Source: Brevundimonas vancanneytii
GTDB taxonomy: Bacteria; Pseudomonadota; Alphaproteobacteria; Caulobacterales; Caulobacteraceae
Reading direction: 5' to 3'
DNA length: 37,459 nucleotides
NCBI GenBank assembly: GCA_945861515.1
Contig: CAMAVA010000012.1
Coordinates: 1 to 37,459 of the forward strand
This document shows positions 1,013 through 6,409 of the stretch, piece after piece. The notes under the pieces were generated by a model that worked only from the letters and a program-made list of their open reading frames with translations, made no database searches and was not told the DNA's origin. Every line of letters starts with the position of its first letter. Position 1 is the stretch's first letter. The position numbers and the translations under genes were made by a program.

Positions 1013-1279
1013 TCACTCGTAGCCAAAGTCTGGAAGCGACCGAAGTCTATAGGCTTTGCGATCTGGTAAAGGGATGTCAAATCTGGGTGTGGCCGCAAGC
1101 AGCACCGCTCTGGGGTCCAGCCTGCGCCGTCCGGGGTTCGACCCTTCCCACTCAACTGCGCTCACCAGAACAGCACAATTCCGGCCTTGAACGGTGACCA
1201 TCTGGGGGCCGTCCTTGAGTACCGCCCGCAACAACTCATTGAAGCGCCCCTCGATCTGTTCTGCAGGCCATGGCTTCAT
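1013..1279 (-). CDS. Phd/YefM-type antitoxin, no visible toxin partner
   Basis: This 88-residue protein resembles the Phd/YefM antitoxin family, which binds operator DNA through its N-terminus and neutralises a partner toxin (often a PIN-domain nuclease) through its C-terminal tail. The N-terminus (MKPWPAEQIEGRFNELL, then GPQMVTVQGRNCAVLVSAVEW) follows the family pattern. The tail (LLAATPRFDIPLPDR) matches the toxin-binding segment seen in VapB/Phd-type proteins. The ATG is preceded by AGGAG at 6 bases, a good ribosome binding site. The toxin normally overlaps or follows the antitoxin stop, yet the 170 bases downstream carry no PIN-like frame and instead hold a dispersed repeat. It is therefore either a solitary antitoxin or the remnant of a deleted pair. 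Its short length and repeat-rich setting suggest accessory DNA. Confidence 0.75.
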   Translation of the reverse strand: MKPWPAEQIEGRFNELLRAVLKDGPQMVTVQGRNCAVLVSAVEWEGSNPGRRRLDPRAVLLAATPRFDIPLPDRKAYRLRSLPDFGYE

Positions 1280-2808: not shown

Positions 2809-3243
2809 CTATTTCTGAAGCCTGAAAACAAACTGGCCGGTGTCGCCGGGCTTGTTGATCATCCGGCCGGCCAGACTGGTCGTGCTGACCCACCGGGCGA
2901 GGTACAGGGCATAGCCGCTGTTGACGGCATACATGATGCGGTCCTCGTCCTGCAGCCAGCGGGCGTCGTCATAGGTCGCGCCGTTATAGCCATAGGTCAG
3001 GGTGCAGTCGGCCTTGAACACGATGGTCATGTCGTAGGTGTCGCCGTCCTGCCAGACCGTATTGCCGCGAAAGGTCTTGCCGGCCACGGAGGTGGCCCGG
3101 CCGGGATCGCCACATTTGGCGGCCGGTTTCGCGGCCGGGGATGCCGTCTGGGCCGGCAGAGAGAGGGCGGGGGCCGCCGCGGTTGCAGCAGGGGCCGCGA
3201 CGAAAACGAACAGGGTCGCGGTGACCAGGATCGAGGGGCGCAT
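2809..3243 (-). CDS. Small secreted protein of unknown function
   Basis: The 144-residue protein has a clear signal peptide (MRPSILVTATLFVFVAAPAATAAA) and an Ala/Pro-rich spacer to about residue 43. A compact domain of about 100 residues follows, rich in aromatic and Asp residues (GNTVWQDGDTYDMTIVF, TYGYNGATYDDARWLQDEDRIMY). The alternating pattern suggests a beta-rich, lipocalin- or META-like periplasmic fold, but I recognise no family. It contains two cysteines (in KCGD and ADCTLTYG), which could form a disulfide. It is divergent from the membrane protein/XRE pair, so the 155-base spacer with the 43-bp palindrome could also hold its promoter. Confidence 0.75.
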   Translation of the reverse strand: MRPSILVTATLFVFVAAPAATAAAPALSLPAQTASPAAKPAAKCGDPGRATSVAGKTFRGNTVWQDGDTYDMTIVFKADCTLTYGYNGATYDDARWLQDEDRIMYAVNSGYALYLARWVSTTSLAGRMINKPGDTGQFVFRLQK

Positions 3244-3328
3244 GGGACTTCGCTCCGTTGCAAGTCAGACCAGGACTCTAGTGCGGGTCCAGGCGGCCGG
3301 AACCCTCAGGAAGGGGGGCAGGCCTTGC

Positions 3329-3371
3329 GATGTTAAATATCTTTGACATCATGTCTGAAATATTGCACATC
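3329..3371. promoter_or_regulatory. 43-bp imperfect palindrome, likely operator
   Basis: The two arms GATGTTAAATATCTTTGACAT and GATGTGCAATATTTCAGACAT (second read on the complement) agree at 16 of 21 positions around the centre at 3350. The tract is strikingly AT-rich for this genome. A TTGACA hexamer (3343-3348) sits inside it, so a bound protein could block or position RNA polymerase. It lies 26 bases before the likely start of the membrane protein gene whose downstream partner encodes an XRE regulator, so autoregulation is the simplest reading. The regulator-site link is inference. Confidence 0.65.
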
Positions 3372-3397
3372 GCTTCCGCACAATGGAGCGCAACGAG

Positions 3398-3859
3398 ATG
3401 TCGTATCGGGAGAAAAGCGCCTGGGTGTCGCTGGTCAGCACCCTTCTCATCTGGGGCGGCTATTTCGTCGCCCTGTTCCGGGGCTTGCTGTCGGGCCAGG
3501 CCGGCCTGATGAGTTTCGCCGGACTGTTTGTCGGCTGCATCTTCCTGGTGGTGGTGGTCCAGGTGGTCCTGGCGATCCTGATTGCCCTGCAGTCACCGTC
3601 GGAAGCCGAGGCCGCGCCCGATGAGCGGGAACGGCGGATCGACGACCAGGCCGGCCGCCGCGCCTACTGGGTCCTCAGCAGCCTGACCCTCACCCTGGTG
3701 CTCTGCCTGCCCGTCGCCCTTCTGCTCTGGCCGGCCTTCCGGCAGGGGCCGGGCCCCCAGGGCCTGATGCTGGCGGCCAGCGGCGTTTTCCTGGCCATCA
3801 CCCTGGCCGAGGTGGTGCGGTCGGCCAGCCAGGTGCTGGACTATCGCAGGCTGGCCTGA
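3398..3859 (+). CDS. Four-helix membrane protein paired with an XRE regulator
   Basis: I do not recognise the family by name. The protein (about 153 residues) has four predicted transmembrane segments in two pairs (SLVSTLLIWGGYFVALF, SFAGLFVGCIFLVVVVQVVL, then WVLSSLTLTLVLCLPVALLL and GLMLAASGVFLAITLAEVV), separated by a charged cytoplasmic-type loop (DERERRIDDQAGRR). I prefer the second ATG (MSYREKSAW) because GGAG lies 9 bases upstream of it. The track's first ATG, 15 bases earlier, has no clear ribosome binding site. Only 3 bases separate its stop from the XRE gene, so the two are probably co-transcribed. Small XRE proteins next to short membrane proteins are a common arrangement, but the role is unknown. 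Confidence 0.8.
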   Translation: MSYREKSAWVSLVSTLLIWGGYFVALFRGLLSGQAGLMSFAGLFVGCIFLVVVVQVVLAILIALQSPSEAEAAPDERERRIDDQAGRRAYWVLSSLTLTLVLCLPVALLLWPAFRQGPGPQGLMLAASGVFLAITLAEVVRSASQVLDYRRLA

Positions 3860-3862
3860 TCC

Positions 3863-4075
3863 ATGGCCAGGGGATCATTGCAGAACCAGGTCCGCCGCCT
3901 CCGGTTCGACCATGGCGAGATGACCCAGGCAGACCTGGCCAGCCGCATCGGCGTCACCCGCCAGACCATCGCCGCCATAGAGCAGAACCGCTATGCGCCG
4001 TCGCTCGAGGCGGCTTTCCGGATTGCCCATGTCTTCGGCGTCGGGATCGACGAGGTGTTCCAGTGGACGCCGTAA
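3863..4075 (+). CDS. Small XRE-family transcriptional regulator
   Basis: This 70-residue protein is almost only a Cro/C1-type helix-turn-helix domain. The canonical helices are visible: [45 protein letters not shown]. It lacks any ligand-binding or dimerisation extension, as is typical of the YgzD-like short XRE proteins. It probably binds DNA as a dimer. Its gene follows the membrane protein after 3 bases, and the palindrome at 3329-3371 is the obvious candidate operator. That regulatory link is inferred. Confidence 0.9.
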
Positions 4076-4150: not shown

Positions 4151-6409
4151 TCAGATCGCTATGGCGACGTCTTCGGGCTCCGCGTCCACTGCGGCGCTGA
4201 TCGCGGCAAACAGCTGGCCGACCTCGATGGGCTTGGCCACGAAGCCGTTCATGCCGGCAGCGATATAGTTTTCCACCTGGTGGGTCATGGCATTGGCGGT
4301 GAGGGCGATGACCGGCGTGGCGGGCCGTCCGGTCTCGGCTTCCCGGCGTCGGATCTCGCGGGTTGCGGCGACGCCGTCCATGACCGGCATCTGGACATCC
4401 ATCAGGATCACATCCCAGTCACATTGCGCCCAGGCGGTCAGGGCCTCCTCACCATTACCGACACACACGGGATTGAGACCCGCCTGGCCCAGAAGCGTCT
4501 TCAGCACCAGCTGGTTCACCGGGTTGTCTTCCGCCGCCAGGATGCGCAGGGGTCGGTCATCGAAACCGCACTCCGGCCCCATGTCCCGGGTTGCTGCAGG
4601 GACGGCTTGGGCGGACTGCGGCAGTGGCAGGTCCACCGTGAAGCAGCTTCCAAGGCCGACCGCGCTCTCGGCCCTGATCTCGCCGCCCATGGCCAGACAA
4701 AGCTCCCGGCAGATGGACAGGCCCAATCCCGTCCCGCCAAATCGGCGAGTGGTCGAGGCGTCGGCCTGGACGAACTTGTCGAACAGGCGATCGATTCTCT
4801 CCGGGTCCATGCCGATGCCCGTGTCGGAAACCGTGATCCTCATCCGGTCCTCGACCCGGTCGACCTGGACCCGCACCGACCCGGCGCTGGTGAACTTCAG
4901 AGCGTTGGAGATCAGGTTGAACAGAATCTGGCGAACCCGGACGGGATCGCCGCGATAGGCGCCCAGGGCCAGCGGCGCGATTTCGACGCTGAAATCCAGT
5001 CCCCGGTTGCCGGCCAAGGGCTTGAAAGTGTCCCTGACTCCATGGACCAGCGGCTCCAGGTCGAAAACAACCGCTTCCAGTTCCAGTCCCCCGGCCTCGA
5101 TCTTGGAGAGGTCCAGGATATCGTTCAGAATCGTCAGCAGGGTGGCGCCAGACTGTCCGATCACCTCGAGCCGCTCGCGCTGCAGCCCGGCCGGGGTGTC
5201 GCGCTGCATGGCCTGAACCATCCCCAGCACGCCCTTCAGGGGCGTACGAATCTCATGGCTGACGGTCGCCAGAAACTCGCCCTTGGCCCGGTTGGCCGTC
5301 TCGGCCGCATCAAGCGCCTCTTGTTGGGCCTTTGCGGCGCGCTGCACTTCGGTCATGTCGACAAAGGTGGCGATACAGTTGCTCCAGGGGTTCTTGCCCT
5401 CCGGGACCGTGCGGATATGGACGCAGACCTCGACCGTTGAGCCGTCAGTGCGCAGGACCTTTGCGTAGAACGGCGGAAAGCTTCCATCGGGCCGAAGACC
5501 ATCCAGGCTTTCGCAGAAGCCGGTCAGGAAACTGGTGTCAAAATGGCGCGCAGCGACCGAGCCTTCAAAGCCGGTGACCCCGTACAGTTCCTCGGCGGTC
5601 TTGTTGGCGCCCAAGAGGAAAAGCGCCGAGATGGCGTCCTCGACCCTTTCTATCTTGCCGCGCAGGGCCTGGCCTAACGCCCTGTCCCCTGCCTCGACAT
5701 GGGGTTGAAGCAGGTCGTAGATGCCGGCGGCGCTGAAGTTGATCTGGGGCAGGGGGCTCTGGTCGAACAGCATTCTCCAGAGGGCGGCGCTCTGACGCAG
5801 CTTTTCCTGGGTTTCATTCAGGTGACGCCGGGCTGCCAGCATTCGGGTCACCCCCTCGGCCGCGAAGCCAAGAGCAATGACCAGGACCAGGCCGACTGGG
5901 ACGAGACGCAGGTTTAGGGGATTGGGCCCGAGCAGGACAATGGCCAGGACCACAAGGCCAGGAAGAGCGCCGCCGACCACGAATCCTGTCTGGGACTGAT
6001 AGGCGTTGGTCTGGGCGAAGAAGATCACCGACAACCAGACCAGGATGGCGCAAAGGGCGCCCTCGAAGGAACCGGACAGCCAGAGCATGGCGCCCATGCC
6101 CACCCAGGAGGCGCCTGCCGCAGCCAGACAGCCGACGTGCCACAGTCGTGTGGGCCAGCCCACTACCTGTCGAAGATACTGCCTGCGCGTGGCGAACCAG
6201 GCGACGATTTCGATGGCCACGCCAAGCACCGCCCAGCTCAGGCAGAGGCTCCAGGGCAACATCTGAGCGAACACCACCCCGACGCCGCTGGTCACGATCA
6301 CCCGCAGGGCAAACCCTGCGTGCGTACTTACGGCCAGTTCGTCCAGCCCTTCGTCGAGGATTTTCTGCAAAGCGCAGGCCCTTCTCTTGTCAGGGCAGTC
6401 TGGGGCCAA
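4151..6409 (-). CDS. Membrane hybrid sensor histidine kinase/response regulator
   Basis: The 752-residue protein senses a signal and phosphorylates itself on histidine, then passes phosphate to its own receiver domain. Residues about 30-195 hold roughly six hydrophobic segments, a membrane sensor. A PAS-like region spans about 205-355 (ending CIATFVDMTEVQRAAKAQ). HisKA carries FLATVSHEIRTPL (His385), HATPase_c has the N box (NLISNALKF), DTGIGM and GGTGLGLSI. The C-terminal receiver (621-740) has the acidic pair in AAEDNP, the phospho-acceptor ILMDVQMPVMDG (Asp671) and the conserved lysine in VAKPIE. The track's first codon is TTG, without an obvious Shine-Dalgarno. The first in-frame ATG is already inside a membrane segment, so the exact start is uncertain. 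No partner regulator or HPt gene is adjacent; the ligand is unknown. Confidence 0.92.
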   Translation of the reverse strand: MAPDCPDKRRACALQKILDEGLDELAVSTHAGFALRVIVTSGVGVVFAQMLPWSLCLSWAVLGVAIEIVAWFATRRQYLRQVVGWPTRLWHVGCLAAAGASWVGMGAMLWLSGSFEGALCAILVWLSVIFFAQTNAYQSQTGFVVGGALPGLVVLAIVLLGPNPLNLRLVPVGLVLVIALGFAAEGVTRMLAARRHLNETQEKLRQSAALWRMLFDQSPLPQINFSAAGIYDLLQPHVEAGDRALGQALRGKIERVEDAISALFLLGANKTAEELYGVTGFEGSVAARHFDTSFLTGFCESLDGLRPDGSFPPFYAKVLRTDGSTVEVCVHIRTVPEGKNPWSNCIATFVDMTEVQRAAKAQQEALDAAETANRAKGEFLATVSHEIRTPLKGVLGMVQAMQRDTPAGLQRERLEVIGQSGATLLTILNDILDLSKIEAGGLELEAVVFDLEPLVHGVRDTFKPLAGNRGLDFSVEIAPLALGAYRGDPVRVRQILFNLISNALKFTSAGSVRVQVDRVEDRMRITVSDTGIGMDPERIDRLFDKFVQADASTTRRFGGTGLGLSICRELCLAMGGEIRAESAVGLGSCFTVDLPLPQSAQAVPAATRDMGPECGFDDRPLRILAAEDNPVNQLVLKTLLGQAGLNPVCVGNGEEALTAWAQCDWDVILMDVQMPVMDGVAATREIRRREAETGRPATPVIALTANAMTHQVENYIAAGMNGFVAKPIEVGQLFAAISAAVDAEPEDVAIAI

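Follow-up and report, generated by a model that had tools for sequence, protein, structure and literature searches.

A predicted operator of paired TGT-N12-ACA palindromes upstream of a membrane protein/XRE regulator gene pair in Brevundimonas vancanneytii and its relatives

An AT-rich palindrome of 43 bp in a 37,459-nt stretch of Brevundimonas vancanneytii DNA (the whole stretch analysed, hereafter the window) raises the question of what it does and which protein reads it. The element is flanked on one side by a divergent gene (2809-3243, minus strand) and on the other by two genes that share one direction and encode a small membrane protein and an XRE-type regulator. The 43-mer, GATGTTAAATATCTTTGACAT-C-ATGTCTGAAATATTGCACATC, occupies positions 3329-3371 with 16 of 21 arm positions complementary, just as the initial annotation had described it. 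Of 5000 shuffles of the intergenic region, one yielded a palindrome of at least this grade (≥16/21), and 5000 shuffles of 3326-3380 yielded none. Two earlier remarks, that it forms an AT-rich patch in GC-rich DNA and has a TTGACA box within it, were likewise borne out, the GC content being 55% in the intergenic region against 67% in the window. Two further palindromes of that grade occur in the window, both GC-rich, with centres at 630 (within the DNA polymerase gene) and 12906.

The constant element in relatives of this locus is an 18-bp palindrome, TGT-N12-ACA, and the units were located with an 18-bp symmetric weight matrix (PWM), both having the consensus TGTnAAAnATnTTTnACA. The window carries two such units, whose centres lie 21 bp apart with a gap of 3 bp between the 18-bp forms (Table 1). 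When the matrix was built without the window locus and its closest relative, these units still ranked first and second in 37 kb. The 43-bp symmetry is a by-product, since two similar palindromes of 18-20 bp adjoin; read from the letters, the inner block GACATcATGTC is merely the junction of the two units.

Table 1. Coordinates of the predicted operator, candidate promoter elements and genes of the module in the window.
Feature	Position	Strand	Basis or remark
Operator unit 1, 18-bp palindrome TGTTAAATATCTTTGACA	3331-3348		PWM score 32.6, top site of the 37-kb window
Operator unit 1, 20-bp form ATGT...ACAT	3330-3349		Sequence
Operator unit 2, 18-bp palindrome TGTCTGAAATATTGCACA	3352-3369		PWM score 25.5, second-best window site
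Operator unit 2, 20-bp form	3351-3370		Sequence
Centre of 43-bp palindrome, spacer base between the 20-bp units	3350-3350		C here, G in L034
Candidate -35 hexamer TTGACA, right half of unit 1	3343-3348	+	Sequence; inferred
Candidate -10, CACATC (often TACATC in relatives), right half of unit 2	3366-3371	+	Sequence; weak match
GGAG ribosome-binding site for start 3398	3385-3388	+	Sequence; conserved in L034
Membrane protein, 153 aa, four predicted helices, DER-motif loop, C-terminal RR	3398-3859	+	Weakly like DUF2178
XRE regulator, 70 aa, single HTH_3 domain, CylR2-like	3863-4075	+	PF01381 E 1.2e-14

Relatives of the membrane protein are present in 94 of 299 genomes of the family Caulobacteraceae, from which 89 homologous loci were read. 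An XRE gene lies directly downstream on the same strand in 70 of these loci and is absent there in 19, and the gap between the two genes runs from -8 to +11 nt in 69 of the 70 pairs. Comparison of the paired loci establishes both the units and their spacing: 68 of the 70 carry two or three units (two in 33, three in 35, none in 2), and 91 of the 103 intervals between the centres of neighbouring units measure 21 bp, the remainder being 42, 18, 26 or 41 bp. In the upstream regions of these pairs we counted 85 instances of TGT-N12-ACA, where about 1.5 would be expected per spacing; the distribution of TGT-to-TGT distances has its peaks at 21 and 42, and a best-site score of at least 15 was reached by 68 of 70 real but only 3 of 350 shuffled upstream regions. 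The search for a conserved operator upstream of homologous pairs, suggested with the initial annotation, was thus decisively positive, and with the operator conserved there the proposal of an autoregulated two-gene module is supported.

The same comparison establishes the linkage of the units to the XRE gene, as TGT-N12-ACA was found in none of the 19 homologues without an XRE gene. As these homologues are distant, their being a different paralogue could in part account for the missing site; the group, mostly of genus g3 and without XRE neighbour or operator (L045, L057, L062, L064, L066-L072, L085, L087 and L089-L094), is possibly a separate paralogue under other control. The two paired loci that lack units, L030 and L037, seem from their sequence to stand second in an operon or tandem pair, the sequence upstream of each being the end of the preceding gene. 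Tandem copies of the membrane-protein gene precede one XRE gene in some genomes (L030, L037 and L153-L155), and in such duplicates the second copy seems to have no site in front of it.

Beyond the family, the membrane-protein profile matched 17 of 385 genomes in a class-wide sample, and units were present in all 12 XRE-paired loci of other alphaproteobacterial families. Units are likewise seen outside the class, in other classes of the same phylum (loci L157, L160, L164 and L166), the families with unit-bearing loci there being f190 and f226, for example with TGTTAAAAATATTTGACA in L160 and L164. The operator is not universal, because distant relatives in f196 and f217 (L168 and L170-L172) possess an XRE gene without a clear unit. 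This distribution points to a widespread self-controlling membrane-repressor switch across Proteobacteria. A different palindrome, TGTGAGACATGTCTTACA, is common to two f190 genomes, where it lies away from the module (G888:C1:1440650-1440667 and G979:C8:88109-88126).

The regulator encoded by the second gene is a bare XRE domain, as had been read from its translation. Its gene had also been described as overlapping that of the membrane protein, which fails for the window: the stop codon at 3857-3859 and the ATG at 3863 are separated by 3 nt, unlike in 36 of the 70 relatives, where the two genes do overlap. The best solved relatives of the XRE protein are the PbsX-type regulator 9k3w and CylR2, the structure of the latter (1utx) being matched with E 3.5e-11 by the single sequence and 6.3e-18 by the family profile. 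Across the family the T-R-Q-T of the recognition helix hardly varies, and neither does the operator. Proteins with an LRE/MRE helix 1 accompany unit spacings of 18 or 41 and those with LRF spacings of 21 or 42, with two cases of 26; this small covariation, drawn from few loci that are related to one another, fits the XRE protein as the reader of the sites. The LRE subtype was seen with abutting units (TTTTTGACATGTCAAAAA, 18-bp period) or with units 41 bp distant in L065, L077, L088, L133 and L150.

Strong sites in 23 array genomes lay almost exclusively at the promoter of the module itself, and pattern controls in Caulobacteraceae gave zero matches. Since near-perfect sites are so confined, the target would be the module itself. 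In the window's genome the two-unit pattern with two mismatches gave 75 matches against 48 for the control and was exact only at the window's site, while the single-unit pattern had one other perfect match, before bchI; a regulon elsewhere in the genome was rejected on these counts.

The gene upstream of the regulator encodes a membrane protein with four hydrophobic segments, in keeping with the four helices annotated at the outset. Translation most likely starts at the ATG at 3398 and not at 3383 as in the list of open reading frames, because most homologues start there, GGAG precedes it and the ATG at 3383 is not conserved, being ACG in L034. This relative (L034 of the Caulobacter MAG G188, locus and genome being treated as one record), placed in one genus with the window's genome in this analysis, has a membrane protein 89% identical to that of the window. 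The residues conserved in the membrane protein are R4/E5, D75-E76-R77, of which the DER motif is invariant, and R150-R151. By the positive-inside rule the segments bearing them would be placed in the cytoplasm, so the membrane protein could touch the XRE protein. The structure model of the membrane protein was poor (pLDDT 57, two sequences modelled). Profile similarity to the predicted membrane proteins of DUF2178 (PF09946) is weak and extends across helix 2, the DER loop and helix 3; the score of 16.3-16.4 bits falls short of the 22.8 bits set as curated cut-off, and 10 of 26 family members match the DUF2178 profile at E<0.1 (best 4.6e-4). Our literature search found no paper naming DUF2178, nor DUF2975 together with XRE, and nothing on this module among work on XRE/membrane-antagonist systems and CylR2-like proteins.

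A comparable gene pair is known from Enterococcus faecalis, in which CylR2, a 66-aa XRE-type repressor, binds the cytolysin promoter, which overlaps the cylR1-cylR2 promoter, and CylR1 is a small protein with three predicted helices and a presumed membrane location; together the two are responsive to a signal at the membrane, although the link between CylR1 and CylR2 is itself unproven (PMC3709268). The XRE protein of the present module is of similar size (70 aa) and matches CylR2 from the HTH as far as the '(I/V)FQW-P' at its C-terminus, and the membrane-protein gene adjoins the regulator gene in the same orientation (70 of 89 family loci). The module would be a Gram-negative, chromosomal counterpart to CylR1/CylR2. 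The two systems differ in that the partner here has four predicted helices and a DER loop, whereas CylR1 by its description has three helices, in that two to three TGT-N12-ACA units in phase make up the operator here, and in that no lantibiotic operon lies beside the window's locus and a second target operon did not come to light. Neither the neighbouring genes nor the strong sites in 23 genomes gave a sign of quorum-sensing control of an adjacent lantibiotic or toxin operon; the neighbours encode a lytic transglycosylase, a protein without an assigned Pfam family and a hybrid histidine kinase. The last, with a receiver domain (4151-6409, minus strand), is convergent with the XRE gene and shows no sign of belonging to the module. 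A short Phd/YefM-like antitoxin ORF (1016-1279, minus strand; PF02604 29.7 bits, cut-off 29.8) is flanked by the end of DNA polymerase I and the lytic transglycosylase gene.

The candidate -35 and -10 hexamers are separated by 17 bp. Among the relatives, TTGAC followed after exactly 17 bp by TAnAn[TC] occurs in 9 loci against about 0.7 expected; TTGAC is in place in only 32 of 70, and a simple consensus promoter scan found nothing. From these features we infer that an XRE dimer would bind each 18-bp TGT-N12-ACA palindrome and that, because the unit centres are 21 bp or two helical turns apart, two dimers would sit on the same face of the DNA and be able to cooperate. The right half of unit 1 would probably supply the -35 box and that of unit 2 the -10 region, so that bound dimers, by excluding RNA polymerase, would make the module repress itself. 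The co-expressed four-helix membrane protein would probably sense a membrane or outside signal and could antagonise or modulate the XRE protein via its conserved, predicted cytoplasmic DER loop, as proposed for CylR1/CylR2; we hold this signalling role to be the least certain of the steps and give it about an even chance. Overall, we consider it likely that the element is the operator-promoter of an autorepressed two-gene module, with XRE dimers on paired units and a CylR1/CylR2-like membrane partner, and within this reading the predicted operator and autoregulation are well supported by the comparative evidence. An anonymous membrane protein/XRE pair would thereby be defined as a regulatory module for which operator, regulator and a single target are predicted.

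The initial annotation had envisaged one long operator for two dimers, an inner one on GACATcATGTC (GACAT/ATGTC) and an outer one on GATGT/ACATC. Capacity for two dimers is retained in the conserved paired units, but the nested geometry gives way to side-by-side TGT-N12-ACA palindromes: genuine as the 43-bp symmetry is in the window, the unit keeps a fixed length across relatives while the inter-unit distance varies (18, 21, 26, 41 or 42 bp), it recurs also as three copies, and it is found without the ACA-N3-TGT junction in 26 loci, against a single locus with the junction and no unit. We rejected nested inner and outer dimers on these unit statistics and regard such an arrangement as highly implausible. 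Hardly credible at all is an RNA hairpin or terminator, into which the 43-bp palindrome could fold, or a chance palindrome of the AT-rich patch; no terminator-like site was found, the element is probably upstream of the transcript, the shuffle tests speak against chance, and the phylum-wide conservation together with variable unit spacing argues for DNA sites rather than a hairpin. A toxin-antitoxin-like pair, with the membrane protein as toxic effector and the XRE protein as an autorepressing antitoxin binding the operator, would suit a small two-gene operon with XRE second and typical autorepression, and the XRE domain gives weak matches to the HipB and Y4mF antitoxins. However, the antitoxin models score far below their cut-offs (Y4mF 37.4 against 71.65, HipB 27 against 79 and HigA 24.7 against 47.7 bits), the best solved relative apart from 9k3w is the regulator CylR2 and not an antitoxin, and in 19 loci (distant homologues) the membrane gene is retained with no XRE gene beside it, where a toxin would not be easily tolerated, so that we judge such a pair to be quite unlikely.

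Could the units instead be binding sites of the photosynthesis repressor PpsR/CrtJ? Its consensus is the identical TGT-N12-ACA, and at bchC and other photosynthesis promoters paired palindromes, one over the -35 and one over the -10, are bound cooperatively, the same promoter logic as proposed here (PMC5362033). Both window units fit this consensus, the window's genome encodes PpsR (416.6 bits against a TIGR02040 cut-off of 275.4) and has a bacteriochlorophyll gene cluster, and the only other perfect motif match precedes bchI. Yet in a list of 61 array genomes compiled by hand, PpsR exceeds the cut-off in 7, including that of the window, and in 54 it does not, with no association between array and PpsR (Fisher p = 0.16); the closest relative, G188/L034, keeps the operator without PpsR, and presence of the array tracks the adjacent XRE gene, whereas CrtJ/PpsR sites are bound by an unrelated multi-domain PAS protein and are not linked to an XRE gene. 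The pair at bchC has moreover an 8-bp gap (26 bp between centres) as against 3 bp (21 bp) here. Because PpsR occurs in only 7 of the 61 array genomes and the gap is 3 bp instead of the canonical 8 bp, we assign the array to the XRE protein; we rejected PpsR/CrtJ as general owner of the sites on phyletic distribution and spacing, and its ownership of the present units is very unlikely. A TGT-N12-ACA near an AT-rich proteobacterial promoter is therefore not necessarily a PpsR/CrtJ site.

With the XRE protein as the preferred reader, the XRE repressor and the unrelated PpsR may have converged on TGT-N12-ACA and on its -35/-10 placement and may, in phototrophic hosts, read each other's sites, an idea that we put forward as improbable. 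PpsR, bchI and the XRE module are all present in the window's genome, and cross-reading, if true, would link light/oxygen control with the membrane module, or a membrane signal with the pigment genes. A pair with the 8-bp gap is found on that genome's own pigment contig, C115 (L174, 8208 and 8234). On the same contig TGT-N12-ACA occurs also at L111 1501-1518 (G000:C115:2774-2791), where bchI scores 503 bits with TIGR02030.
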